This document shows positions 1,176 through 21,824 of a stretch of DNA of 36,986 bases, piece by piece. The number at the start of each line of letters is the position of its first letter. Position 1 is the stretch's first letter. Below the pieces are notes generated by a model. That model had not been told where the DNA came from and searched no databases. It was given only the letters and a program-made list of their open reading frames with translations. Source of the DNA: Candidatus Omnitrophota bacterium (lineage in GTDB: Bacteria > Omnitrophota > Gorgyraeia > Duberdicusellales > 4484-171); the NCBI GenBank assembly GCA_028713415.1, contig JAQTOI010000009.1, positions 1 through 36,986 on the forward strand. Direction: 5' to 3'. The position numbers were made by a program, and so were the translations under genes.

Positions 1176-1421
1176 ATGGCGCTCGATGTATTACTGCTAA
1201 ACCCTCAAGCGGTTATTTTTGAAGGGAAAGCCGAAAACGTGATATTGCCCGGAGAACAGGGGGTATTTGAAATTTTGCCGTACCACAAACCCACCTTGAG
1301 CCGCTTGATTTTCGGAACCGTGTTTGTAGATAACCAGAGTTTTCCCCTGCGACGGGGAGTGGTTAAAGTCATAAACAACAAAGTAACAATCATAATCGAA
1401 GAACGCGAGCGCCAAGTTTAG
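1176..1421 (+). CDS. atpC: F-type ATP synthase epsilon subunit, N-terminal beta-sandwich domain only
   Basis: 81 aa with epsilon-like pattern (LLNPQAVIFEGKAENVILPGEQGVFEILPYHKP); the C-terminal helical domain is absent. Next to other F1Fo genes. Confidence 0.75.
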   Translation: MALDVLLLNPQAVIFEGKAENVILPGEQGVFEILPYHKPTLSRLIFGTVFVDNQSFPLRRGVVKVINNKVTIIIEERERQV

Positions 1422-1672
1422 CGGCACCTGAAAAATCAGAAGAAAGTTAAAATTTTTTATATTTTTTTATACATTCGTGCCACAAGGTCACATTCTGAAA
1501 AAGCGCGGATTATAGAGGACAGCGTTTTAGTCCTTCAATTATGCGCAAGGTAAGCCCTGAGTAAAACAAAACTTAAGGGGCTTTAGAAATGCGCACGAAA
1601 ACCTCAGCCTCTTGCGTGGGGTGCTTTACATTTTATGCGTGAGTTTCACTTTACTGAGTTTATTTTTTAAAT

Positions 1673-1891
1673 ATGGGCAGAAACCTAGCATTATTAATCA
1701 TTTTCGGATTATGCATTCTGGGGCCTTGCGCAGTATTTGCGGTGAGTAGTTTTGCCAGCATTAACGCATTAGGAAGAAATCCTTCCAGCGCGCCAAAAAT
1801 TTTTACGGCCATGGTCCTGGTGCTGGTATTTGCTGAAGCGCTAAGCCTCATAGCTATGCTGGTAGTGTTTCAGCTTTTCAGCGCATCGTAA
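1673..1891 (+). CDS. atpE: F-type ATP synthase subunit c
   Basis: 72 aa, two hydrophobic helices, polar loop ALGRNPSS, acidic residue in helix 2 (VFAEALSL). Confidence 0.8.
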   Translation: MGRNLALLIIFGLCILGPCAVFAVSSFASINALGRNPSSAPKIFTAMVLVLVFAEALSLIAMLVVFQLFSAS

Positions 1892-2056
1892 GCAATAAAA
1901 AAGCTCATAAGCTCCTAAGTCCATAAGAAAGAAGAAAAAAGATGCCCTGGAGCCGGTTTATTTCCAATAATTGCTTATGAACTTATCAGTCCCTCGGGAA
2001 TACTCGGGACTCCCGTTGGTCGCTTAAGGGCTTATGAGCTAAACTGAAGGAGTAGA

Positions 2057-2779
2057 ATGATAATAATATTATCAGCATTTATTTTTCTGGTGCTTATTAC
2101 CTTAATCCTCATCTACGCGTTCAGGCGTATTTTAGATAAAAATGTAGTTTCCGCTACATCGCACTTTGATACGCTTAGCCAGGATTATGACAAGAGACAA
2201 CACGAGATAAACCGGCTCCTTGAGGAAACGAAATTAAAAGCACAAGCGTTGCTCGCACAAGCGCAATCTGAAAGTGAAAAGCTAAAACAAAAAATTATTA
2301 CGGAAGCAGAAAGTGAGAGAGACAAAATTGTCGCCGGGGCGCGCACCCAGGCAGGAGAAATCATAAACCAGGCAGATAAGGCGCGCAATGCTTTGCTAGC
2401 CGAAATCGAAGAAAGAATCACCAAAGAGGCTGTTAAAAAAGCATCTAATTTAATACAGGAAGCCCTTCCGGAAAGTTTTAGGAGCCAGGCACATGCGCGT
2501 TGGGTTGATGATTTGCTCAAAACCGGATTCGGAAAACTGGATAAAATTCGCATAAACGAAACCGTGAAAGAAGTAAAAATTATCTCTGCTTTTCCTTTAA
2601 CTGATGAACAACGCAAGAAAATTTCTCACTACTTAGAAGAATCTTTAGGGAAAGGGTTTACTGTTAAAGAAGAAATTGATGAGAAAATCGTTGTAGGCCT
2701 TGTCATCCAGATAGGGAGCCTTGCGCTGGATGCAAGCCTTAGAAACAAAATTAAAGAAAAAGCGATAGCCAAAGCTTAA
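2057..2779 (+). CDS. F-type ATP synthase b-delta fusion protein
   Basis: N-terminal single TM plus long charged coiled coil (b-like), then a delta C-terminal-like domain (SAFPLTDEQRKKISHYLEESLGKGFTVKEEIDEKIVVGLVIQIGSLALDASLRNKI). Confidence 0.8.
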   Translation: MIIILSAFIFLVLITLILIYAFRRILDKNVVSATSHFDTLSQDYDKRQHEINRLLEETKLKAQALLAQAQSESEKLKQKIITEAESERDKIVAGARTQAGEIINQADKARNALLAEIEERITKEAVKKASNLIQEALPESFRSQAHARWVDDLLKTGFGKLDKIRINETVKEVKIISAFPLTDEQRKKISHYLEESLGKGFTVKEEIDEKIVVGLVIQIGSLALDASLRNKIKEKAIAKA

Positions 2780-2780
2780 A

Positions 2781-4250
2781 ATGCAGCCAGAATCAGAGAC
2801 TAAATTTGAAGTCCGTGAAGTTGGATTTGTGCAGTCGGTCCGCAAGTTCATCGTTATAGCTAAAGGCCTTCCTTTTTGTATCAACGGCCAAATCGTAGAG
2901 TTTGCCAACGGCACTTTAGGCTTGGTAATGGGTTTTACTGAAGAAAAGGTCCAGATTTTGATTCTTGGAGACTCTACCAGTATTAGGGCGGGAGATGAAG
3001 TTTATAACAAAGGGCAATTTTTAAAACTGCCCGTAGGTGATGGTTTTATCGGACGCGTAGTAAGCAGCCTGTGCCAGCCGCTTGATGGAGGCGAGCCTAT
3101 AGAAGCAAAGGGCCTTTACCCTGTTTTTATAGTTGCCCCTGGCGTTATGGACAGGCAACCGGTTAAAGATACGCTTGAATCCGGCGCTCTTATTATTGAC
3201 GCGATTATCCCTCTGGCTAAGGGCCAGCGCCAGCTTTTGATAGGCGATCGTCTCACCGGTAAAACTACAGTCGCGGTTGATGCAATATTAAATCAGAAAG
3301 GAAAAGGTGTTATCTGTATTTATTGCTGCATAGGCAAGCCATATTCAGCGCTTACCAAGGTTCTTGATATTTTCAGGGAAAATGAAGCGCTTGATTATAC
3401 TATAGTGGTGAGCGGTATCGCATCAGTTACAGTGGGAGAGCAGTATCTGGCTCCCTACACCGCGTGCATGTTGGGCGAGTATTTTATGGCACAGGGGCGC
3501 GACGTACTCTTAGTCACGGATGATTTAACCAAGCATGCCTGGATATATCGCCAGATTTCTTTATTATTGGAAAGAGCCCCGGGGCGCGAAGCTTATCCGG
3601 GAGATATTTTTTATATTCATTCACAAATGATGGAGCGCGCAGGCTACTTGCGCAAGGAGCTTGGCGGAGGCTCAATGACGTTTTTACCGATAGTTGAAAT
3701 ACTTCAAGGGGATTTAACCGGTTATATACCTACCAACTTGGTTTCGATGACTGACGGGCAACTTTATTTTTCCACTGCGCTTTTTAATAAAGGTTTTAAA
3801 CCGGCTATCGATTTTGGCCTTTCGGTTTCGCGTATCGGCAATAAAGCCCAGTGGCCGGCGATGAAAGCTTTAAGCAAATCGTTGCGCCTTGACTACTTGC
3901 AATATAAGGAACTCCTGCAGATGACGCAATTGCGGACAACAGGGCTTTCTAAAGAAGCGGAAAGCAAATTGAGAAGAGGCGAGGCGATAAACCAGCTTAT
4001 TATCCAGGATAAAAGCAAGCCCGTATCCCTTGAGGAGCAGGTTATTTATTTATACTCTTTGAGCAAGGGCCTCTTAGATAGCCTGTCTGTTACCCAAATC
4101 AAGCAATTCCGGCAGGGAGTTTTGGCTTTTTTTGAAAAAAATTGCCCGGAGTATACCAAAGAGCTAAGAGAGACCAAAGATTTAAGCGAAGCCCTTAAAG
4201 CTAAAATGGATGCGACACTTTCAGGGTATTTGAAACAATTGATTGTTTAG
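2781..4250 (+). CDS. atpA: F-type ATP synthase alpha subunit (divergent)
   Basis: P-loop GDRLTGKTT, VTDDLTKHAWIYRQISLLLERAPGREAYPGDIFYIHS, and SVSRIG arginine-finger region. Confidence 0.93.
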   Translation: MQPESETKFEVREVGFVQSVRKFIVIAKGLPFCINGQIVEFANGTLGLVMGFTEEKVQILILGDSTSIRAGDEVYNKGQFLKLPVGDGFIGRVVSSLCQPLDGGEPIEAKGLYPVFIVAPGVMDRQPVKDTLESGALIIDAIIPLAKGQRQLLIGDRLTGKTTVAVDAILNQKGKGVICIYCCIGKPYSALTKVLDIFRENEALDYTIVVSGIASVTVGEQYLAPYTACMLGEYFMAQGRDVLLVTDDLTKHAWIYRQISLLLERAPGREAYPGDIFYIHSQMMERAGYLRKELGGGSMTFLPIVEILQGDLTGYIPTNLVSMTDGQLYFSTALFNKGFKPAIDFGLSVSRIGNKAQWPAMKALSKSLRLDYLQYKELLQMTQLRTTGLSKEAESKLRRGEAINQLIIQDKSKPVSLEEQVIYLYSLSKGLLDSLSVTQIKQFRQGVLAFFEKNCPEYTKELRETKDLSEALKAKMDATLSGYLKQLIV

Positions 4251-4425
4251 TTTGACACCGCAAAGGCGCAAAAGGGCCACTGAAAACGCAAAGAGGAAGA
4301 TTAAACGGCTTATAGAACGTATATCGAATCATATATGAGTCGTTTTCGCTAAGAAAATCTAAAGCATTTTGCGATTTTGCGGATTTTAGCGGTTTAGCGG
4401 TGTAAATTAAAATTAATATCATTCT

Positions 4426-5268
4426 ATGCAGACAATTTCAAATATCAAAAAAGATTTGGAATTCAACCGTGGGCTTTCTTCGCTTATCGAAGCATTGAAA
4501 AATATTGCGGTTTCACAATATCGTTCGCTTGAACGTAAAGTAAAAACTTTCGGAGGTTTTCTCTCAAATATTGAGGGTTTTTTTGAGCTCATTGACCGAA
4601 ACCGTGTAACGCATCCTTTTGTTGTGCCCACAAAAAATACTCAAATGGTGGTGGCGATAACCTCGGACAGCGGCCTTTTAGGCGGTTTAAATATGGAGGT
4701 CATCTCTATTGCCTTGCATCAACTGCAGGATATCAATGGATCTCTAGTGGTAGTAGGTGAGCGCGGGAAAATATATGCACGTGAAAGCGGCGTGCCTTTT
4801 ACCGCTTTTCCCGGTATTAAAGATGAAGATCGTTACGGACAAGCAATGCAGCTGCGTAATTACCTTACGGAGAAATTTCTGCGCGAATCGTTTGGGTACC
4901 TGAAAATAGTTTATCCTCACCCGGTTTCTTTTACCGTGCAAAAAGTTTACGTAGTGCCAGTTTTGCCATTTGCCAAGGAATTAGCTGCGACAAAGAGCGT
5001 AGCAGTGGCTGACATTCTTCTTGAATCTAACATGGCTGATATAGTAGAATACCTTGTTTATTTATGGCTTGGACAGAAATTGTATGAGCTCTTTGGCTTA
5101 AGCCGCCTGGCAGAATTTGCTGCCCGCTATGTACATCTTGAAGAAAGCCTACAAAAATTAAAAACAATAGATACAAAGTTGCGCTTGCAGTACTTCAGGG
5201 TGCGCCATGAGATTATCGACCGCAGCATGCGTGAATTGTTTAGCGCAAGGCTTCTGTATGCGGGATGA
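4426..5268 (+). CDS. atpG: F-type ATP synthase gamma subunit (divergent)
   Basis: N- and C-terminal helices with the SDSGLLGGLN Rossmann motif; lies between alpha and beta. Confidence 0.88.
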   Translation: MQTISNIKKDLEFNRGLSSLIEALKNIAVSQYRSLERKVKTFGGFLSNIEGFFELIDRNRVTHPFVVPTKNTQMVVAITSDSGLLGGLNMEVISIALHQLQDINGSLVVVGERGKIYARESGVPFTAFPGIKDEDRYGQAMQLRNYLTEKFLRESFGYLKIVYPHPVSFTVQKVYVVPVLPFAKELAATKSVAVADILLESNMADIVEYLVYLWLGQKLYELFGLSRLAEFAARYVHLEESLQKLKTIDTKLRLQYFRVRHEIIDRSMRELFSARLLYAG

Positions 5269-5271
5269 TAT

Positions 5272-5303
5272 AAAGACCACAGACCAAAGACCGAAGACCA
5301 AAG
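5272..5303 (+). repeat. Heptanucleotide tandem repeat between gamma and beta genes
   Basis: agaccac agaccaa agaccga agaccaa agag, immediately before the beta ATG. Confidence 0.75.
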
Positions 5304-5305
5304 AG

Positions 5306-6706
5306 ATGGATAAGAAGACTAAATGCGGGAAAATAATATCGGTTCAGGGGCCGGTTGTGGATGTAAAATTTTCAGAAGCTTCCGATGTCCCCAATATCTT
5401 TACCGTTATGTCTACGCATACGGTTGATAATGCCGAGGTTGTGCTTGAAGTAGCGGAACATGTGCCTGGAAATATCGCCCGCTGTATTGCTATTAATTCT
5501 ACAACGAACTTGCAGCGTAACCAGCAAGCTGACATTATAGGCGATGCCATCCAGGTTCCCACAGGGGATGCCCTCTATGGGCGCATTATTAATATTTTGG
5601 GCCAGCCTATAGATCAAAAAGGAGAGGTCAAGACGTCAGAGATGGTTTCGATACGAAAGCCTGAAATGGGCAGTAAGGTTAAAATCAGCAAAGATAAAAA
5701 TATGCGCCGCAGTTTTGAAGTGATGGAGACCGGGATTAAGATTATTGACCTCCTGTCCCCATTGGTTAAGGGAAGTAAAACCGGCATTTTGGGCGGCGCA
5801 GGCCTTGGAAAAAGCGTTTTGACTTTGGAAATAATACAGCATATTGTAAAAAAATATCAGGGAAGTTGCGTCTTTGTAGGAGTAGGGGAGCGTATACGTG
5901 AAGGTAATGAGTTATACTATGAGCTTCAAAAACACGAAGTTTTATCTAAAACCATGATGGTTTTTGGCCAGATGAACGAGCCTCCCGGCGCTCGTTTTGG
6001 TGTTGCCATGACCGGCATTACTATGGCAGAAACGGTTCAACGTAAAAATCAGGATGTTTTGTTGTTTGTTGATAATATTTTTCGTTTTGTGCAGGCAGGC
6101 GCGGAAATCTCCACGCTTTTAGGAAGGGTGCCCTCGGAAACAGGTTACCAGCCTACGTTGCTTTCGGAGGTGAGCGAGTTCCATGAGAGAATTCGTTCTA
6201 CACCTGATTCGGGAGGCTCAATTACCTCTGTTGAAGCGGTATATGTACCAGCGGATGACCTGACAGACCCGGCGGTTGTGGCAATTTTTAGCTTTCTTGA
6301 TTCAGTTTTAGTACTGTCCCGCGAACGTATACAGCTTGGGCTTTATCCGGCAATAGACCCACTGCTTTCATCGTCGGCAAATTTGGATATTGATATCGTA
6401 GGCAGAAGGCATTTTGATGTTGCCCAGGAGGTAATAAGGGTCTTCCAGCGATATGAAGAGCTTCGCAGGATAGTACTTGTGGTAGGTATTGATGAATTGT
6501 CTGCGGCTGATAGAATTTTATATGAGCGCGCAAGAAAATTACAGAATTTTCTCACGCAGCCATTTTTTGTAGGCGAAGCATATACCGGTAAAAAAGGCGC
6601 TTACGTGACCATTGAAGAAACCCTTAGCGGTTGTGAGAAAATTATTGCCGGCAGAGTAGACAATAAGCCCGAAGAAGAGTTTTATTTGATAGGCGCTCTT
6701 ACATGA
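5306..6706 (+). CDS. atpD: F-type ATP synthase beta subunit (divergent)
   Basis: P-loop GGAGLGKSVL, GVGERIREGNELY, LLFVDNIFRFVQAGAEISTLLGR, YVPADDLTDPA. The ORF is open from 5207, but ATG 5306 (MDKKTKCGKIISVQGPVVDV) fits better. Confidence 0.93.
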   Translation: MDKKTKCGKIISVQGPVVDVKFSEASDVPNIFTVMSTHTVDNAEVVLEVAEHVPGNIARCIAINSTTNLQRNQQADIIGDAIQVPTGDALYGRIINILGQPIDQKGEVKTSEMVSIRKPEMGSKVKISKDKNMRRSFEVMETGIKIIDLLSPLVKGSKTGILGGAGLGKSVLTLEIIQHIVKKYQGSCVFVGVGERIREGNELYYELQKHEVLSKTMMVFGQMNEPPGARFGVAMTGITMAETVQRKNQDVLLFVDNIFRFVQAGAEISTLLGRVPSETGYQPTLLSEVSEFHERIRSTPDSGGSITSVEAVYVPADDLTDPAVVAIFSFLDSVLVLSRERIQLGLYPAIDPLLSSSANLDIDIVGRRHFDVAQEVIRVFQRYEELRRIVLVVGIDELSAADRILYERARKLQNFLTQPFFVGEAYTGKKGAYVTIEETLSGCEKIIAGRVDNKPEEEFYLIGALT

Positions 6707-7170
6707 ACATACGCAACCAGAAAAAGCTCGGTGAGATCCTAATAGCTAAAAAGATGCTTTCGCAGCGCCAACTCGATGAGGCTTTGCGTGAACAGGCGCG
6801 AACAAAAGAATTCTTGGGGACAATTTTAATTCGCACGCACCAGATTGATGAGGCCCAGTTTCTTACGGCGATGTCTGAACAGTTTAATATGCCGGTAATT
6901 ACCTTGACGGATAAATTTATTGACTGGAAACTCCTAAAACATTTCAGCCCGACCCTAATCATTGATTATAAATGCTTTCCCGTTGCGCAGGGTGATTCAG
7001 GTTTGACTATAGCAATAACAAATCCACTGGATGCCTGGGTATTAGCAAAAGCGGAAGAAGAATCGCAAGGCGCGCGGGTTCTATTTGTGCTGGTAACACA
7101 AAAAGATATGGATGACGCTATCGCACGCTACAAGCAGCAGGCTCGAACAAACCTAAAGGGGTTATTTTAA
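6703..7170 (+). CDS. Stand-alone MshEN / GspE N-terminal-domain-like protein (putative c-di-GMP binding)
   Basis: KKLGEILIAKKMLSQRQLDEALREQ...LGTILIRTHQIDEAQFLTAMSEQFNMPVI resembles the MshEN repeat; ATGA overlap with the beta-subunit stop. Confidence 0.75.
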   Translation: MNIRNQKKLGEILIAKKMLSQRQLDEALREQARTKEFLGTILIRTHQIDEAQFLTAMSEQFNMPVITLTDKFIDWKLLKHFSPTLIIDYKCFPVAQGDSGLTIAITNPLDAWVLAKAEEESQGARVLFVLVTQKDMDDAIARYKQQARTNLKGLF

Positions 7171-7173
7171 GCA

Positions 7174-9348
7174 ATGCCAAAGAGAATTGATACAATTTTG
7201 TCTGAAGGCCTCGTCGAAAAAGGATTAATTTCTAAAGACGCGGCTGATCAGATTTTGAAAGAAGCGCAAAATAGTGACAAAAGTTTTAAAGAGCTTTTGC
7301 TGGGCCGCAAAATTCTTCCGGAGCATGATATTTTAATTATTCTGTCAGAAAAACTTCATTTACCGTTTATTGAACTAAAACAAACGACAATTGAGAAGTC
7401 CGCAATCGCAAGAAGCCCGTTTAAAATCTCCTCTTACTATAAATTCATGCCTGTGGTATTTAAAGACAGGGTTTTATCTATTGCTGTTGCTTATCCTTTG
7501 GATGTAAAAATACAGGATGAAATTATAACTCAACTGGGCTGTGATATTAGCGTTAACCTTGCATGTGAAAGCGATATATCGGATGCTCTGAAAAAATATT
7601 ACGGCCTTGGCGCTGAAACCATCCAGAGTATCAATGTTGCCGATAGCGATGAGAAGGGCTCCACTATCGCAAGCCTGCAGGAAAAAATAGAAGATATTGA
7701 AAAACTCGCTACGGACGCCTCCGTAATAAAGCTGGTGAACCAAATAATTTTGGAAGCATACCGCAAAAGAGCAACCGATATACATATTGAGCCTTACAGG
7801 AAAAATGTTTCTTTACGCTACCGCATTGACGGAGTGTTATATGACGCACATGTGCCTGCGGAAATTAAGAATTTTTTGAATGCCATTATTTCGCGTATCA
7901 AAATCATGTCTAATCTGAATATCGTGGAGCGCCGCTTGCCTCAGGACGGCAGGGCAGTCGTCAGAGTCCAGGAACAGGTTCTTGATTTGCGCATTTCAAC
8001 TATTCCTACACCTTTTGGTGAAAGCGTAGTTATCAGGATTCTGCCTACGCAGATGCTTTTTAGCTTAGAGAAATTAGGCCTGGCAAAGAATGAAGTGGAT
8101 ATTTTTGAGAAACTAATCTTAAAACCTCACGGTATTATTTTTGTAACCGGCCCCACAGGTAGCGGGAAAACGACCACGCTTTATACCTGCCTTTCTCGTA
8201 TTAATACCAAAGATCGCAAGATTATCACCATAGAGGACCCAATAGAATATGAAATGCCCGGCATTACTCAAATACAGGTTATGCCGGAAATCGGCCTTAC
8301 CTTTTCCACTGGGCTACGCAGCATGTTAAGGCATGACCCGGATGTTATAATGGTAGGGGAAGTGCGTGATCTAGAAACCGCCGAGATCGCTATACGTGTT
8401 TCGCTCACGGGCCACATAATATTTTCAACCTTGCACACCAATGATGCACCCAGCGGTATTGCCCGGCTCCTTGATATCGGCTTAGAACCCTATTTGCTCG
8501 CCTCGACGGTTGAGGCATTCGTTGCTCAAAGATTGATACGCGTTATTTGCCAGGATTGTAAATATGAAGATACCGCCGCTCCCTTAGAGCTTAAAACCAT
8601 GATAGCACACGATCTGGGCATATCGGTTGACGGCGTAAAGATATATCGCGGTAAGGGCTGTTCTGCGTGTAATTTTACCGGTTTCCTGGGACGCACCGCC
8701 ATATATGAAATTCTAGTGGTGAATGAAATTATAAAAAATCTTATTTTGAAAAAGGCCGCCGCTAATGATATTAAAAAAGTTGCAGTTTCCGGCGGCATGC
8801 ACACCTTACGTCAAAACGGCTGGAATAAAGTTATTTCAGGAGAAACTTCTCCCGAAGAAGTCATGAAGGTAACAACTCTCGAAGAAGTTAGCGGCGAAGG
8901 TGCTACTTTTGATAGCGCGCAAGCAAAACAAGATAAACAATCCTTTGACGTTCCTGTTGCGCAGCCTTCAAAAGGAAATGTTCCGGGGGCAAAAATCGCT
9001 GACAAACGGATTTATAACCGCCTGGATAGCAAAGTAAACTTACATTACACTTTGATAAAACCCGAGGATGCCATTGATAAGAAGGGTTTTGCGTTAGACC
9101 GTTACGGACAAACTGCTAATATTTCCGCGGGTGGCCTGTTATTTATTTCGGATGAAAAAATAGATATAGGCTCGATTATCGAGATGCATCTTGAGCTTCC
9201 CGATGGAAGCGAAAAGCCCATAGAGTGTTTAGCAAGGGTAGTCCGCATAGAAGAGATAGAGCCGGAACATAAGTATAACATCGCTGTTTGTTTTCTTGAT
9301 ATTACAGGCACGGAAAGAGGAAGGTTGAATAAGTTTGTGCAGAGGTAA
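7174..9348 (+). CDS. gspE: Type II secretion / type IV pilus assembly ATPase GspE with a C-terminal PilZ domain
   Basis: GspE_N region, Walker A GPTGSGKTTTLY, Asp box IEDPIEY, RHDPDVIMVGEVRD, tetracysteine CQDC...CSAC; C-terminus has RIYNR (RxxxR) and NISAGG (PilZ D/NxSxxG). Confidence 0.93.
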   Translation: MPKRIDTILSEGLVEKGLISKDAADQILKEAQNSDKSFKELLLGRKILPEHDILIILSEKLHLPFIELKQTTIEKSAIARSPFKISSYYKFMPVVFKDRVLSIAVAYPLDVKIQDEIITQLGCDISVNLACESDISDALKKYYGLGAETIQSINVADSDEKGSTIASLQEKIEDIEKLATDASVIKLVNQIILEAYRKRATDIHIEPYRKNVSLRYRIDGVLYDAHVPAEIKNFLNAIISRIKIMSNLNIVERRLPQDGRAVVRVQEQVLDLRISTIPTPFGESVVIRILPTQMLFSLEKLGLAKNEVDIFEKLILKPHGIIFVTGPTGSGKTTTLYTCLSRINTKDRKIITIEDPIEYEMPGITQIQVMPEIGLTFSTGLRSMLRHDPDVIMVGEVRDLETAEIAIRVSLTGHIIFSTLHTNDAPSGIARLLDIGLEPYLLASTVEAFVAQRLIRVICQDCKYEDTAAPLELKTMIAHDLGISVDGVKIYRGKGCSACNFTGFLGRTAIYEILVVNEIIKNLILKKAAANDIKKVAVSGGMHTLRQNGWNKVISGETSPEEVMKVTTLEEVSGEGATFDSAQAKQDKQSFDVPVAQPSKGNVPGAKIADKRIYNRLDSKVNLHYTLIKPEDAIDKKGFALDRYGQTANISAGGLLFISDEKIDIGSIIEMHLELPDGSEKPIECLARVVRIEEIEPEHKYNIAVCFLDITGTERGRLNKFVQR

Positions 9349-9416: not shown

Positions 9417-10634
9417 ATGCCTATTTATAAATACCACGCTAAAAAAGGTCCGGAGGAGGTTGTCGAAGGTAATATTGAGGCTCATTCGCAGGATGAGGCT
9501 ATAGAGAAGTTAAGCCAGCAAGGGTATTTGCCATTACGCATCGAACAGCAGGAAGAGAAATCCACTTCAGTTAAGGTTGTCTCTAAACGCGAGATAGGCA
9601 GAGTCCGCGGCCGTGAAATTACCATTGTCAGCCGCCAATTAGCCAGCCTCCTGAAAGCAGGCGTTAGCATCCTTAATTCGTTAAGTATTATCGCAGAGCA
9701 GTCAGAAAATATACATTTGCGTAATTTGGTTTATTATATTTATAATGAGGTTCGTCAGGGTGCTACTTTTTCCCAGCCTCTGTCAGCATTTCCTAAGATA
9801 TTTTCTCCCCTATATGTCGCCATGGTGCGCACCGGTGAAGATAGCGGATCTCTGCCGGAGACTCTTCTGCGTATTGCCGAATATCGTTTCAAAGAGGAAG
9901 AAATGATGTCGCGTTTTCGCATGGCCATGGCTTACCCAATACTTATGGCAATTGTGGGTTTCGGGACGATAGTTTTTATGTTTGTCTTTGTGATGCCAAG
10001 GCTTATGCAAATTTACCTTGACGTGCGCCAAGACCTGCCGGTACCGACAAAAATTTTGCTTGGTATTACTAAAGCAGTAAAACAATGGGGAGGGTGGTTA
10101 GCTATTGGTGCCGTTATTGTCATCCTGCTTCTCAGGCGCCAAGCTAAGACTAAAAGCGTAAGGCTGCATTTGAGCCAATTAAAACTGCGCTTGCCTGTTT
10201 TCGGGGAGTTTGCTCTGAAGCAGGAACTTGCGCGTTTTTGCCTTACCTTAGAGCTTTTGATACACAGCGGCATCCCTATACTGCGCGCCATAGAGATAGC
10301 GATACCTGTTTTAAGTAACGAAGTCATCAAAGAGCAATTAAGAAGCAGCCACAAAGCCCTTGAAGCAGGTGGATCGTTTGGCAGGAGCCTGAAAGAATCC
10401 AAGGTTTTCCCGCTTTTTATGAGCAACCTCCTTATTGTGGGTGAGGAATCCGGCAAGCTTTCTGATAGTTTAAAGGAAATAGGTTCTTCCTATGAACGCG
10501 ATACTGAAGAAGCTTTGAAGGTGTTTGCGACACTGCTTGAACCCCTTATGATTTTAGTGATGGGTTTGATTGTCGGTTTTATCGTAATGGCGATGTTGTT
10601 GCCGATTTTCGAAATTAATCTGCTGGCAACCTAA
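9417..10634 (+). CDS. gspF: Type II secretion inner-membrane platform protein GspF/PilC
   Basis: MPIYKYHAKKGPEEVVEGNIEA start, duplicated GspF domains with three TM helices, FSQPLSAFPKIFSPLYVAMVRTGEDSGSLPETL. Confidence 0.93.
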   Translation: MPIYKYHAKKGPEEVVEGNIEAHSQDEAIEKLSQQGYLPLRIEQQEEKSTSVKVVSKREIGRVRGREITIVSRQLASLLKAGVSILNSLSIIAEQSENIHLRNLVYYIYNEVRQGATFSQPLSAFPKIFSPLYVAMVRTGEDSGSLPETLLRIAEYRFKEEEMMSRFRMAMAYPILMAIVGFGTIVFMFVFVMPRLMQIYLDVRQDLPVPTKILLGITKAVKQWGGWLAIGAVIVILLLRRQAKTKSVRLHLSQLKLRLPVFGEFALKQELARFCLTLELLIHSGIPILRAIEIAIPVLSNEVIKEQLRSSHKALEAGGSFGRSLKESKVFPLFMSNLLIVGEESGKLSDSLKEIGSSYERDTEEALKVFATLLEPLMILVMGLIVGFIVMAMLLPIFEINLLAT

Positions 10635-10806: not shown

Positions 10807-11682
10807 TTGAAACTGATGCATAAGGCAAAGCTATTAAATTTATTCTTTATCGCTATTATTCTTTTCTGTGTAGAGGTGCGCAACAGCGCTGCGGCCGATT
10901 GGAGAGAGCTGGGCAGCGATCATTTTATAATATACTACAGTGGAGATGATAAACTTGCCGATGATGTCGCAAAACGTGCGGAGGCTTATTACAAAGATAT
11001 TGCGATTATGCTGGGGTACCCGCGTTATTCTGAATTCTGGACTTGGGAAAAAAGGGTTAAAATTTATATTTATCCCGACAAAGAATCTTTTTTGCGCTCC
11101 AGCGGCCAACCAGCCTGGTCAGAGGGGATTGCTGATTATAAGCTGAAGCAGATAATAAGTTACGCCTGGAGCAAGGGTTTTACGGAGTCCCTTTTGCCGC
11201 ATGAAATGGCGCATTTAATTTTCAGGGATTTTGTTGGTTTTCGCGGTGTCGTGCCCTTATGGCTTGATGAAGGTGTGGCGCAGTGGGCGGAAGAGCAAAA
11301 GCGAGACCATATAAAAGCAATGGCCCGGCATCTTTATGAAACGGATGCGATATTGTCGTTGTCTGACATGATGAGGGTGGATATTGGAAACCTTAGAGAA
11401 GCAGCCAAAGTTTATATTCGTTCTACGCGCATAAAATCCGGAGAACCCGGCGTGTTATTTATCAGCGGCGATCAGCTGGTTTCTACATATTATTTACAAT
11501 CCGTTTCTCTGGTGGGTTTTTTAATAGAAAAATACGGTTCCAGCAGCTTTGCTGATTTCTGCCGGCAATTGCGCGATGGAAAACATTTAGAAGAGGCTTT
11601 GCGTTTTGCTTACCCAACGCATCTGCGCAGCCTCGATGATTTAGAAACGGAATGGCGTAAGTATCTGGAAAAAGGAGAATAA
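10807..11682 (+). CDS. Secreted or membrane-anchored gluzincin metallopeptidase (peptidase MA-like)
   Basis: N-terminal hydrophobic signal, HEMAH zinc motif, downstream WLDEGVAQWAEE third-ligand motif. Start is TTG 10807 or ATG 10816. Confidence 0.8.
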   Translation: MKLMHKAKLLNLFFIAIILFCVEVRNSAAADWRELGSDHFIIYYSGDDKLADDVAKRAEAYYKDIAIMLGYPRYSEFWTWEKRVKIYIYPDKESFLRSSGQPAWSEGIADYKLKQIISYAWSKGFTESLLPHEMAHLIFRDFVGFRGVVPLWLDEGVAQWAEEQKRDHIKAMARHLYETDAILSLSDMMRVDIGNLREAAKVYIRSTRIKSGEPGVLFISGDQLVSTYYLQSVSLVGFLIEKYGSSSFADFCRQLRDGKHLEEALRFAYPTHLRSLDDLETEWRKYLEKGE

Positions 11683-11843: not shown

Positions 11844-12257
11844 ATGATTTTTAGTAGAAAAATGAAGGCATTCACTCTTATTGAACTGATGCTGGTTGTC
11901 ATTATCATCGGGGCTCTGGCAGCAATGGTTCTGCCGCGTTTTGCCGGGAGAGGCGAACAGGCTCGTATCGGAGTTGCGCGTGCCGATATAGAGGCGCATA
12001 TACCCACAGCACTGAAACTCTACGATTTAGATAACGGCGGTTTTCCATCAAGCGAAGAGGGCCTTAACGCATTACTGAATAAACCGGCTTCAGCTTCCGG
12101 CTGGCATGGCCCGTATTTGGAGAAAAAAGCTATTGATCCCTGGGGTAGAGAATATAAATACAAGAGCCCGGGGGATCACAAAATTGATTATGATATTTAT
12201 TCTGTCGGCAAAGACGGGCAAGAGGGCACGGCAGATGACGTCAAGAATTGGGAATAA
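11844..12257 (+). CDS. gspG: Type II secretion major pseudopilin GspG
   Basis: AFTLIELMLVVIIIGALAAMVLPRF leader, GFPSSEEGLNALL, WHGPYL, DPWGREY, SVGKDGQEGTADD; SD aaggagg upstream. Confidence 0.95.
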   Translation: MIFSRKMKAFTLIELMLVVIIIGALAAMVLPRFAGRGEQARIGVARADIEAHIPTALKLYDLDNGGFPSSEEGLNALLNKPASASGWHGPYLEKKAIDPWGREYKYKSPGDHKIDYDIYSVGKDGQEGTADDVKNWE

Positions 12258-12777
12258 ATTCAGAGGTCAGAGGTCAGAAGTCAGAAGTCAGAAAAATCTG
12301 TTCTCTGCCTTTCCGCCTTTAGCCAGCGACCTTGCCGCTAGGCAGGCGAGACCTCGCCGCGAAGCGGCGGGCTGTCGTCTGCCTTCTGGTTTTACTTTGG
12401 TTGAGGTAATGGTTGCCACGGCGGCTCTGGCCTTTAGCGCAGCGCTTATTTATCGAGCTTTCTTTATTTGTGCAGATTCGTTTAACTATTACCTAAGTTA
12501 TTTGTCTATCAGCCCGCGTTCGGATGAAATGTTGTGGCAAGCGCAAGATAACCTGTCTAAATTCGGCCAGCTTAGGGACATGGATAGCTCTGGTGAGGCT
12601 GTCATTAACAATAGGCGTTTTAGCTGGGAGTTGTCTTATGCGTTTGTGGATGAGATAGAAAATTCCCAGTTATACAGGATAGATTTAGTTACTTTATGGC
12701 AGGCGGGAACAAGGCATATTGAGCAGCCGAGAATAGCCTATGTGTTATTTAAAAAAAGAACAGAAAGCGTCCAGTAA
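12235..12777 (+). CDS. Type II secretion minor pseudopilin (GspI/GspH-like)
   Basis: Prepilin motif PSGFTLVEVMVATAALAFSAALIYRAF; position between GspG and a J-like pseudopilin. Frame open from 12106; ATG 12235 is the likelier start. Confidence 0.75.
   Translation: MTSRIGNKFRGQRSEVRSQKNLFSAFPPLASDLAARQARPRREAAGCRLPSGFTLVEVMVATAALAFSAALIYRAFFICADSFNYYLSYLSISPRSDEMLWQAQDNLSKFGQLRDMDSSGEAVINNRRFSWELSYAFVDEIENSQLYRIDLVTLWQAGTRHIEQPRIAYVLFKKRTESVQ
12262..12292 (+). repeat. Heptanucleotide tandem repeat inside a pseudopilin ORF
   Basis: cagaggt cagaggt cagaagt cagaagt cagaaaa. Confidence 0.8.
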
Positions 12778-12838
12778 AGATCATGGGGGTGTGCTTATCG
12801 GCTACAATAGCCTTTTTTATTCTTTACGTAGTTCTAAA

Positions 12839-13411
12839 GTGCGCATTAAATCTTTCACGCTCATTGAGTTAGTTATCGTAGTGGCTCTTGCTGCAGTCGT
12901 GAGCCTGGCAATATACAGAACGTTTGCAAGCGGCCTTAACATATGGAAGAAAACACGCGTGACGCCTCCGCAGGAGGAGACAGCATTCTTTTTTGAAAAG
13001 TTCACCGCGGAAGCACGCAATAGTTTAAAATTTACCGGCATAAATTTTTCTGGAGAAAAAGATAGAGTTGAGTTTCCTACTCTCGTAGAAAGCCGGATAT
13101 TGGGAAAAACAGTAGGCAAAATTGCTTACATTTACGATGAAGGCCGGCATATTTTGCGCAAAAAGCAGTATGATTATTCTCAAAGTTACCTAGGCGGAGA
13201 AGGCTCAAGCTACGATGCGTTAACTAATGTTAGCTCATTTCATTTTACTTATTATTTTTTTGATGAACATAAAAATGAGTATGTCTGGATGGATGAATGC
13301 GTTCAAAATAAAATCCCGATAGCAATTCATATGGAATTTGAACTCAGCAGTCCTGAAGGGCTTACTTTTAATTTTTCTAAAACAATCAGGATTCCAGTGG
13401 AAAGTTATTAA
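12839..13411 (+). CDS. Type II secretion minor pseudopilin (GspJ-like)
   Basis: GTG 12839 gives the short leader MRIKS^FTLIELVIVVALAAVVSLAIYRTF; ORF open from 12740. Order G-I-J-K supports J. Confidence 0.75.
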   Translation: MRIKSFTLIELVIVVALAAVVSLAIYRTFASGLNIWKKTRVTPPQEETAFFFEKFTAEARNSLKFTGINFSGEKDRVEFPTLVESRILGKTVGKIAYIYDEGRHILRKKQYDYSQSYLGGEGSSYDALTNVSSFHFTYYFFDEHKNEYVWMDECVQNKIPIAIHMEFELSSPEGLTFNFSKTIRIPVESY

Positions 13412-13419
13412 GGAAGAAA

Positions 13420-14421
13420 ATGCGTCCACGCGCAAGTATTTTAATTATAGTTCTCTGGTCAGTTTTTTTACTGACGATTTTTGCAGTGGTTTTAAGTTAT
13501 GGCGTGCGCCAGAAACTTGAAGTGATAAAACGAATAGATTCACGAAGCAACTTGCGCTATCTCAATGAGGCCTGCATAGAGAAGACCATCTTCGACATAA
13601 AACGTGTGCAAAAAAAAGAATATTTCGTTTTCAAAAATTCTACCCCATCAGAAAACGGAAATCCTTTAATGACAGAGGTAGATATTATAGATGATAAACC
13701 CGGGGGAAACGCGCATTCATTTGAGCTTAGATCATCGATATATACCTCGCGCGTTAGTGTATTTGACGAAGCTAGGAAGCTAAATATCAATATGGCGAGC
13801 CTACCTGTCATGGAGCGGCTTTTTATGATTGTCTTAGGTTTCGACAAGATTGAGGCGTCTGAGCTGGCGGCATCCATTGTTGACTGGAGAGACACTGATA
13901 GCCTTCTAACCTTGCCTTTGGGCAGCGCAGAAGACTCTTATTACCGTAACTTTCCTTATTCTTACGAAGCTAAAGATGGGCCATTTGAAGCTTTAGAAGA
14001 ACTTCTTTTGGTGAAAGGTGTTACGCGCGAAGTATTTGAAAAGCTTAATAATTATATTACAATCTATGGTGATGGCAAAATTAACATTAATACCGCTCCC
14101 GAGGAAGTGCTTAATGCTGTCGGGTTTTCTAGCGATATGGTTTCAAAAATTATTGCATTGCGCCAGGGAGACGACGGTATACCAGGTACTGCCGACGATA
14201 TTGTTATTGATGCGCCGGGAAATTTGCAATCTTTGATGCAGGGTCGTTTCAAACTAGGCGAAGCTAACTTACAACAATTAGAACTTTTAGCCGATGCTTT
14301 CACCGTTACAACATCTTATTTTACTATCAAAGCTTCAGGGTTGCGCGCTGGAGGAAGCGCGCAAGCGCAGACAGTTTGCGTAGTTGACAGAATGGGTAAT
14401 ATTTTGCGTTGGATTGAATAA
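13420..14421 (+). CDS. gspK: Type II secretion minor pseudopilin GspK
   Basis: N-terminal TM SILIIVLWSVFLLTIFAVVLSYG, KLNINMAS, IVDWRD(T)D, ININTAPEEVLNA. Confidence 0.92.
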   Translation: MRPRASILIIVLWSVFLLTIFAVVLSYGVRQKLEVIKRIDSRSNLRYLNEACIEKTIFDIKRVQKKEYFVFKNSTPSENGNPLMTEVDIIDDKPGGNAHSFELRSSIYTSRVSVFDEARKLNINMASLPVMERLFMIVLGFDKIEASELAASIVDWRDTDSLLTLPLGSAEDSYYRNFPYSYEAKDGPFEALEELLLVKGVTREVFEKLNNYITIYGDGKININTAPEEVLNAVGFSSDMVSKIIALRQGDDGIPGTADDIVIDAPGNLQSLMQGRFKLGEANLQQLELLADAFTVTTSYFTIKASGLRAGGSAQAQTVCVVDRMGNILRWIE

Positions 14422-14447: not shown

Positions 14448-15935
14448 ATGTTTGGAATAAATCTGGAGCATCTTAACATATTCGGCGGTAAAAGCTACAA
14501 AGAGCTGGTTGGTGTTGATTTAAGTGCTAACCACCTTAAGCTATCGTACATCCGATATTCTACGGCACATCCTGAAGTGGTCAATTTGGCGGCCAGGACC
14601 ACAAGCGGCCTCTCCGACGCTGATATTTCTAAGTCGCTTAATGCAGCATTTCATAGCTTACATACCAAAAGGCCCGTAGTTATCGTAACATTGCCCTCGA
14701 GTCTTGTTATAACTAAAAATATTGAAATACCTTCAAGTAACCCAAAGGAGATACGCGAAATCATCAATTTGCAGGCAGGCAGGCATACGCCATATTCGCG
14801 CGAAGAGATAATTGTTGATTACATAGATTTAGGCACCTATAAACACAGTTATACTAAAATTCTATTAGTTATTGTAGCGCGCAGTACGATTAAGCGTCAC
14901 GCTGAAATACTCGATAAAGCTGGATTACGGCTGGATTGTGTATTTTTTTCCGCCGAAGGCCTCGCGCGCGCTGCCACGAAGTTATTTAAGCTGGATGCCG
15001 AAAATTCACCGGTTAACATCATCCAGGTCGATGAAGGCTCAACGGATTTTACGATTGTTTTAAGAAATAAAATTTTATTCGTACGCAGTATTCCTATAGG
15101 CACCCAGCATGTATTATTCGAAAAGGAGAAATATCTCGTGCGTTTCGCCGATGAAATAAAAAAATCTCTCGAAGCATACCAGAGCGAAGATATTGATAGG
15201 AGCCCCACGACGCTTATCCTAACAGGAGCCACCGAAGAGCTCAAGGATTTGGAGAATGTTCTTAATAATACTTTGCACTTTCCAGTGAGAAATATTCCAT
15301 ATACGCGTAACTTGTTGGTTTTACCTGACGCTTCAGCTACATTGTCTTCCGAAAAAAGAGTTTCATTCTTGAATGCGATAGCCCCGTTACTATCATTTAA
15401 TGAGATGAAGGTTAACCTAATCCCGGAAGAGGTTAAGTTACGTAAGTCTTTCGAAGAGAAGGGGAAAGAGCTCATCAAGACAGGCATATTGGTGTTGACC
15501 ACGTTCGTGTTGGTATTTTCTATTTTGATTAATAAAATTTACTTTAAAACGGTATATTTGAGAAACTTAAAAGCTAAGTACAACGAGCTCGATAAAAGCG
15601 CAAAGACGCTCGAAAAAGATTTTGCGCGAGTTAGCCTTGCGCGTAGTTATACCGCGCACCGTGGTGTCCCGCTAGAGGCTCTGGCTGAATTATACAGTAT
15701 TGCGCCCTTAGACATTGAATTGAACAATATCCGCCTTGACGATAAAGGAAGGTTTACGGTGCGCGGCACTGCTGAGGCGATGTCTACCGTTTTTGCTTTT
15801 ATCGAAAGCATGGAAAAATCAAACTATTTTAAGGAAGTTAAAACCAAATATACTTCAAAACGTAAAGAAAACTCAAAAGACGTGACAGATTTCGAAATAA
15901 CTTCTTTGCTTGACAAGGGTATGGTTAAACCATGA
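14448..15935 (+). CDS. PilM-PilN fusion (GspL-like) assembly protein
   Basis: Actin-like PilM fold motif VGVDLSANHLKLSYI, then one TM (TGILVLTTFVLVFSILI) and a PilN-like periplasmic region. Confidence 0.82.
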   Translation: MFGINLEHLNIFGGKSYKELVGVDLSANHLKLSYIRYSTAHPEVVNLAARTTSGLSDADISKSLNAAFHSLHTKRPVVIVTLPSSLVITKNIEIPSSNPKEIREIINLQAGRHTPYSREEIIVDYIDLGTYKHSYTKILLVIVARSTIKRHAEILDKAGLRLDCVFFSAEGLARAATKLFKLDAENSPVNIIQVDEGSTDFTIVLRNKILFVRSIPIGTQHVLFEKEKYLVRFADEIKKSLEAYQSEDIDRSPTTLILTGATEELKDLENVLNNTLHFPVRNIPYTRNLLVLPDASATLSSEKRVSFLNAIAPLLSFNEMKVNLIPEEVKLRKSFEEKGKELIKTGILVLTTFVLVFSILINKIYFKTVYLRNLKAKYNELDKSAKTLEKDFARVSLARSYTAHRGVPLEALAELYSIAPLDIELNNIRLDDKGRFTVRGTAEAMSTVFAFIESMEKSNYFKEVKTKYTSKRKENSKDVTDFEITSLLDKGMVKP

Positions 15936-16492
15936 AAATAAAGCTACAGTCATTATACACATCGCTAGCGCATCTTTCTAAGCGTGAAAAACTTGTTTTG
16001 TATGTTGCCGTTGCCATTATTTTTGTAACTCTGTTGGATAGGCTAATTATCGGGCCCATCACCTTGAGAATAAAGTTACTTAACAAGGAAATAGAGGATA
16101 CACAGCGCACCATAGAAACTAATTCACATATATTGGCACAAAAGGACAGAATACTGGCTGAGAGCGCAAAATATGCTTCGTTTTTAAATAGCAATAAATC
16201 CGAGGACGAAGAAGTAACTGCCCTACTCAAGGAGATTGAGGCAATTGCAAATAAAGCTTCTGTCTATTTGGTTGACATGAAACCGGCTCCGGCAAAAGAA
16301 GAGGGAGCAACGAAGAAATACATTGTAACAGTAACATGCGAAGGGCAGATGGATCAGATTATTGATTTTATTTATAATATCGAAAGCTCAAGCAAATTAC
16401 TGGTTATTGAAAAATATGAAATCAGCCCGAAATCGCAAGAATCAAGCGTGGCTGTTGCCGGAATGACTGTATCAAAAACGATTATACCTTAA
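15932..16492 (+). CDS. PilO/GspM-like assembly protein
   Basis: ATGA overlap with upstream PilM-PilN; N-terminal TM, coiled coil, PilO-like C-terminal fold; operon position. Confidence 0.7.
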   Translation: MKIKLQSLYTSLAHLSKREKLVLYVAVAIIFVTLLDRLIIGPITLRIKLLNKEIEDTQRTIETNSHILAQKDRILAESAKYASFLNSNKSEDEEVTALLKEIEAIANKASVYLVDMKPAPAKEEGATKKYIVTVTCEGQMDQIIDFIYNIESSSKLLVIEKYEISPKSQESSVAVAGMTVSKTIIP

Positions 16493-16539: not shown

Positions 16540-17109
16540 ATGAAAGCCGGAGGAGCTACCTTTATTAGTTTTTTTGTTATCTTAGTTTTATTCTATAGTT
16601 TTTGGGCAAGCGCCGCTCCCACAATGCAACAACGAGAAGCTCATGCCGACAGAAACGATGACGGAGTAGTGGATAGAAAGGAAAGGCAGATAGAGAAAAA
16701 TTGGGAGCACAAACAGGAGTCGAAAGTTAATAAATGGTGGGAAAATAAAGCTGACACAAATAATGACGGGATAGTTGATAGCAGCGAACTTGCTTCCTGG
16801 AAAACCATTGAAAAAGAACACATAGATTTAAATGCTGATGGCACGGTTGATGCAAAAGAGATAAGGCTTTCCTGGAAGGAACTCAAACAAAGGGCCAATA
16901 CGCCTCTTGAGAAAAAATATGATTACGATTCGGATGGTTGGCTTGCGCCAAGCGAAGCAACCCAGATGCTTAAGGATAAATATACTTTATTGCAGACAAA
17001 TTCACAGGCACGGGTTGATACAGAAATTGAAGGCAAATATGATACCAACAATGACGGCATAATAGACGCTCAAGAAGCAGGAGATTTAAAGGAGGACTTG
17101 GGAATATAA
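16540..17109 (+). CDS. Secreted EF-hand protein with five calcium-loop motifs
   Basis: Signal peptide; 12-residue loops DRNDDGVVDRKE, DTNNDGIVDSSE, DLNADGTVDAKE, DYDSDGWLAPSE, DTNNDGIIDAQE, each with Glu at position 12. Confidence 0.87.
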   Translation: MKAGGATFISFFVILVLFYSFWASAAPTMQQREAHADRNDDGVVDRKERQIEKNWEHKQESKVNKWWENKADTNNDGIVDSSELASWKTIEKEHIDLNADGTVDAKEIRLSWKELKQRANTPLEKKYDYDSDGWLAPSEATQMLKDKYTLLQTNSQARVDTEIEGKYDTNNDGIIDAQEAGDLKEDLGI

Positions 17110-21446: not shown

Positions 21447-21824
21447 ATGATGGCTATCAAGCCGATTATGCATGAACGTAGAAAATTTCCGCGCGCCAAT
21501 ATTTCTTTTCCCGTTGAATGTAATCCGCTTACGTCTAATACCTATTTCTATACGGTTTCTAAAGATATGAGCCCCTCGGGAATAAAAATATTAAGCAATA
21601 CTTTCCTTTCAAAAGACGCGCTATTTAAAGTAAGTATCAATTTTATCGATAAGGTTATGCAGCTAAAGGCCAAGGTAGCATGGTGCAGCCAAACGCGTAC
21701 CCCGGACACTTTTCATACCGGTTTGCAATTTGTTGAAGTTAATTCCGAAGAACAAAATAGCCTTAACCGTTTTTTTAGTAAGATTACCCCATCAGTACCC
21801 TCAAACGATAGCCCTTCAGCCTGA
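21447..21824 (+). CDS. PilZ-domain protein
   Basis: RRKFPRANISFPVEC (RxxxR), KDMSPSGIKI (D-x-S-x-x-G), GLQFVEV ending. Confidence 0.85.
   Translation: MMAIKPIMHERRKFPRANISFPVECNPLTSNTYFYTVSKDMSPSGIKILSNTFLSKDALFKVSINFIDKVMQLKAKVAWCSQTRTPDTFHTGLQFVEVNSEEQNSLNRFFSKITPSVPSNDSPSA

Follow-up and report, generated by a model that had tools for sequence, protein, structure and literature searches.

A secretion and pilus assembly ATPase of Omnitrophota with a covalent PilZ tail: a probable relocation of the c-di-GMP receptor

How c-di-GMP controls the motors of type IV pili and type II secretion systems is an open question, with two routes on record: an MshEN domain inside the motor, or a PilZ protein acting with FimX in trans. 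An Omnitrophota operon in the window (the whole 36,986-nucleotide stretch of DNA analysed here) encodes a motor with a PilZ domain of its own. A 724-residue open reading frame at 7174..9348 (+), free of internal stops, joins an MshEN domain, a T2SSE ATPase core and a C-terminal PilZ domain in one polypeptide, called GspE-PilZ below. In the accessible part of the open-access literature, no description of a GspE/PilB-PilZ fusion was found. The original prediction, made from the DNA letters, described a complete GspE ATPase with its tetracysteine motif that continues into a tail with the two c-di-GMP-binding motifs of PilZ, and took this tail to imply direct control of the motor.

The T2SSE core spans residues 179-564 (7708..8865, +) and matches the full profile (PF00437, 428.4 bits), with conserved nucleotide-binding motifs that include the Walker A sequence GPTGSGKTT. 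The tetracysteine metal site, formed by C459, C462, C496 and C499 (8548..8670, +), is invariant in 68 homologs, and this part of the prediction is thereby borne out. The protein thus has the features of the GspE/PilB secretion ATPases. Its scores stay below the cut-offs of both the equivalog for GspE proper (TIGR02533, 577.3 vs 630.25) and that for PilB (TIGR02538, 556.5 vs 675.65); judged by its sequence, the ATPase is of GspE/PilB type, and these scores do not settle the exact system to which it belongs.

The core is followed by a linker (residues 572-608, 8887..8997, +) for which AlphaFold2 gives a pLDDT below 50, and then by the PilZ domain at residues 609-724 (8998..9345, +; PF07238, Foldseek). 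The tail had been placed correctly at 9007-9345, although the domain starts slightly earlier, at about residue 609 (base 8998), after the linker. In the full protein, the PilZ match covers residues 643-723 with 43.6 bits against a Pfam cut-off of 22.5, and the tail by itself (9007-9345) reaches 47.1 bits with an E value of 3.2e-12. Both predicted motifs are present: RxxxR as RIYNR (R612 and R616; 9007..9021, +), whose two arginines are invariant in 68 homologs, and [DN]xSxxG as NISAGG (9118..9135, +), found in 69 of 74. The AlphaFold2 model of GspE-PilZ, built on an alignment of 68 fusions, has a mean pLDDT of 85.9, with most of the PilZ part at about 90; the value is lower, 77.1, for the tail modelled without the rest of the protein. 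Modelling bears out the assignment of the tail, since PilZ structures lead the Foldseek matches in the PDB with a probability of 1.00 and many of them are bound to c-di-GMP. These fold matches include MotI/DgrA, a Pseudomonas PilZ, Alg44, MrkH, YcgR and BcsA, while MotI/YpfA are the sole matches when PDB sequences are searched with a profile of the tail. Among the PDB matches listed for GspE-PilZ, no chain aligns beyond about residue 577.

The covalent tail had also been set against the usual routes of c-di-GMP control over such ATPases, N-terminal MshEN domains or separate PilZ proteins. The covalent PilZ stands, but this GspE has an MshEN domain as well, a degenerate one, at residues 1-146 (7174..7611, +), with a Pfam match above cut-off at residues 62-146 (PF05157, 51.4 bits). 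MshEN domains bind c-di-GMP through two 24-residue motifs, of which Gly3 and Gln24 touch the ligand (PMC5013675, PMC11731258), and the criterion applied here was two motifs of the form RLGxx(LVI)(LVI)xxG...LxxxLxxQ separated by a 5-residue spacer. The window's protein reads ILSEGLV...KEA and SFKELLL...SEK, with Gly3 and Gln24 missing from both motifs, and its N-terminus scores 18.4 bits in NCBIfam NF053729 against a cut-off of 38. This loss is general among the fusions. By best ungapped placement, not one of 70 fusions keeps all four key Gly/Gln residues and 55 of the 70 keep none; all four are kept in 8 of 17 non-fused Omnitrophota homologs.

The tail was used as a query across 285 sampled Omnitrophota genomes, from which the matching regions were then retrieved. 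This search for the predicted architecture yields 74 MshEN-T2SSE-PilZ proteins, the window's own counted in, and three further, more divergent fusions outside that set. R612, R616 and G654 are invariant across the 68-row alignment of fusions, and identity to the window's tail drops to about 40% within the aligned set. RxxxR was counted in 73 of the 74; the single miss, L081, reflects the point at which the search started, and its tail reads KRIYPR. An assembly chimera, or a chance read-through of gspE into a neighbouring PilZ gene, might be suspected in a fragmented metagenome-assembled genome with 18 PilZ matches. Its probability is vanishingly small, and it was rejected because 74 homologous loci, nearly all from separate genomes, have the identical domain order.

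A quick tree of the T2SSE core unites the fusions in one supported clade (SH-aLRT 98), within which PilZ was lost once, in L190, L195 and L200. These three still have a degenerate MshEN whose motif has not been regained, and neither an MshEN nor a PilZ gene is seen near them, so the machine can evidently run lacking both. Since loss of the MshEN motif and gain of PilZ each happened about once, their association is one evolutionary event and not many, and the tree offers only 2 independent pairs and no statistical power. Six further full-length T2SSE paralogs from the genome of the window were examined, and all lack a PilZ tail. A scan of genome contigs used query patterns built from close relatives; its strong matches (identity at least 40%), where readable across, are fusions labelled Omnitrophota, save one labelled only "bacterium", and with these patterns none of the strong matches is a fusion from another named phylum. 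The scan matches from Spirochaetota, Auribacterota, Nitrospirota, Holophagae, Chloroflexi and other phyla are PilZ proteins without a T2SSE core.

Directly upstream of the motor gene lies a standalone MshEN gene (6703..7170, +) that encodes 155 residues. Its ATG overlaps the stop codon of the F1-beta gene (ATGA), and it ends 3 nt before gspE. The protein has an intact c-di-GMP motif (NF053729 51.8 bits, cut-off 38), with both halves in place as KLG...Q and FLG...Q, though Gly10 is replaced in each, and it matches the structures of PilF GSPII-B and MshE. A lysine at motif position 1 is also seen in the high-affinity PilF GSPII-B (PMC11731258), and the affinities of MshEN-type domains for c-di-GMP range from 6 to 500 nM (PMC5013675, PMC11731258). 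Detached MshEN genes lie directly upstream of the fusion in 29 of 74 loci, and tandem pairs occur at L055, L056, L077 and L078. In the contig-scan set, all four key residues are kept in 27/27 detached MshENs. The other 45 loci have no detected MshEN gene nearby, and some of these sit on truncated contigs. Because the MshEN of the motor is degenerate and an intact MshEN gene precedes it, PilZ would replace or complement MshEN and not stand apart from it. Further PilZ proteins occur around the fusions: at L161, L162, L164 and L166, a second one (about 161 residues, over 90 bits with the tail profile) follows directly downstream and no detached MshEN lies upstream, and the window has a stand-alone PilZ protein of 125 residues (51.6 bits) at 21447-21824, 12 kb downstream of the fusion.

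The genes that follow GspE-PilZ resemble those of a type II secretion system. They encode the platform protein GspF (9417..10634, +; PF00482, TIGR02120), the major pseudopilin GspG (11844..12257, +; TIGR01710 135 bits, cut-off 88.85), GspJ-like and GspK-like minor pseudopilins (12740..14421, +; profile matches), and PilM-PilN-like (GspL-like) and GspM-like assembly proteins (14448..16492, +; profile matches). The plain label "T2SS" was dropped in favour of "T2SS-like" because GspG passes its T2SS cut-off but GspE, GspF, GspK and GspM remain below theirs. gspF comes after the fusion in 69/74 loci, often followed by relatives of GspG, GspJ, GspK, PilM-N and GspM. A Peptidase MA-like protein between gspF and gspG (10807-11682) is kept in 43/74 loci. 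Right after the GspM-like gene, at 16540-17109, the window encodes a protein with EF-hand/dockerin-like calcium-binding repeats, a possible secreted substrate, which was not found near other fusions within the stretches retrieved.

An F-type ATPase module (1176..6706, +) precedes these genes and consists of a b-OSCP fusion (2057-2779), alpha (2781-4250), gamma (4426-5268) and beta (5207-6706), together with epsilon-like (1176-1421) and c-like (1673-1891) genes, both named by eye from their sequences. F-type ATPase genes precede the fusion in 70/74 loci, immediately ahead of the pilus/T2SS-like run. Subunit a was not found in the window's genome, which is 94% complete; in five other genomes (G069, G145, G250, G190 and G122) it lies on another contig than the fusion locus. 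The window's genome has more ATP-synt_ab pairs on contigs C34 and C12. Upstream of the module, positions 1-1164 encode the C-terminal end of a protein with a likely transmembrane helix, a part for which no Pfam match was found. In several relatives, a protein of about 1800-3200 residues precedes the F-ATPase module. Among L220, L221, L224, L226 and L237, the homolog of the window's protein measures roughly 2700-3200 residues in several and about 430-470 residues, beside a separate large open reading frame, in others.

Seymour et al. (2023) described "symbiotic", non-respiratory type 2/3 F-ATPase loci with type IVa pilus genes in Omnitrophota and proposed a role in symbiosis (PMC10066038). The adjacency of F-ATPase and pilus genes that marks this locus type is found here, and the present locus very probably belongs to it. 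That its F-ATPase is of type 2/3 has indirect support from subunit a, missing from the window's genome and on separate contigs in relatives. As the co-location has already been reported, the novelty here is on the c-di-GMP side, in the fusion and the detached MshEN; neither PilZ nor c-di-GMP occurs in the main text of that paper.

The domain architecture and predicted fold, the pattern of kept and lost motifs, the single clade and the gene order are together best explained, in our judgement probably correctly, by a T2SS-like or type IV pilus assembly ATPase whose c-di-GMP receptor has moved from MshEN to the PilZ tail. On the evidence of the motifs, the receptor role seems to have passed from one end of the protein to the other. 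The ancestral N-terminal MshEN would be retained as a structural N1 domain that has lost signal binding, and the C-terminal PilZ, on its flexible linker, would now be the receptor. With c-di-GMP bound at RxxxR/NISAGG, the junction of linker and PilZ would fold against the barrel of the domain, and PilZ would then dock differently on its own hexamer and so switch pseudopilus assembly. The likeliest dock may be the degenerate MshEN/N1 domain, by analogy with free PilZ on the N1 domain of PilB in Xanthomonas (PMC8389850, PMC11656802). In the window and in many of its nearer relatives, the free intact MshEN from the same operon would provide a second c-di-GMP input at the motor, perhaps as a receptor of higher affinity. 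We infer c-di-GMP binding, a docking site and an effect on the motor, of one sign or the other. Direct motor control, as originally predicted, is the natural reading of a PilZ tail with both motifs conserved across the clade, and c-di-GMP is probably made and read in the window's organism, given the 12 GGDEF and 18 PilZ matches in its genome. Doubtful is a wider reading, in which a non-respiratory F-type ATPase without subunit a, the pseudopilus motor with its covalent PilZ and the detached MshEN, all from one operon, would make up one c-di-GMP-gated machine; two sites of different affinity would read the signal and set the motor as well as how it couples to the rotary ATPase.

Even a PilZ domain with good motifs can act mainly by protein docking. 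The tail might be chiefly a docking or localisation module that ties the ATPase to a partner or a pole, with c-di-GMP having little effect or none; the long low-confidence linker would fit a docking arm, and the PilZ of type IV pili binds PilB N1 without binding c-di-GMP (PMC11656802, PMC8389850). That precedent weakens on comparison, because PilZ of the Xanthomonas/Pseudomonas type does not bind c-di-GMP, whereas the fusions keep RxxxR essentially invariantly and [DN]xSxxG nearly so, and we consider this account unlikely, if worth serious attention. It is quite improbable that the detached MshEN is the main receptor, acting on the motor in trans, with the PilZ tail secondary. The intact motif in every detached copy scanned, the position directly before gspE with an ATG overlapping the preceding stop, and the nanomolar affinities of such domains all speak for it, but the gene accompanies only a minority of the fusions, almost all of which retain the PilZ motifs. 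Reception by the covalent PilZ tail is thus the reading preferred here.

We know of no PilZ tail on XpsE, the GspE of Xanthomonas campestris. Its MshEN has lost c-di-GMP binding through motif changes (PMC5013675), as is predicted for the fusion. The MshE, GspE, PilB and PilF ATPases share the ATPase family and the N-terminal fold with GspE-PilZ, and c-di-GMP acts on them at the motor (PMC5013675, PMC11731258). Unlike those with a c-di-GMP-binding MshEN (GSPII), the fusion has lost the MshEN motif and has PilZ at the opposite end. The Xanthomonas PilB-PilZ-FimX system has PilZ working at the assembly ATPase, an enzyme that itself binds no c-di-GMP (PMC8389850, PMC10333796). In that system the receptor is FimX and PilZ is a separate, non-binding protein; the PilZ of the fusion is covalently attached and possesses both motifs. 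The cellulose synthase BcsA, one of the fold matches of the tail, is likewise an enzyme with a C-terminal PilZ, which gives it covalent c-di-GMP control, but it is a different enzyme, the fusion being a secretion ATPase.

Enzyme-PilZ fusion is already an established theme, as BcsA illustrates. What is new in GspE-PilZ is how two known types of c-di-GMP receptor are arranged on a known motor; the arrangement is conserved and clean, and purified protein would allow a direct test. Since motor, sensor and mutants reside on one polypeptide, their allosteric coupling is directly measurable. In this clade, an in-motor MshEN appears to have given way to a covalent version of the PilZ route, with the dead MshEN kept as a scaffold and a live MshEN present as a separate subunit in many members. 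This suggests that the Omnitrophota F-ATPase/pilus locus, proposed to serve symbiosis, is under c-di-GMP control.
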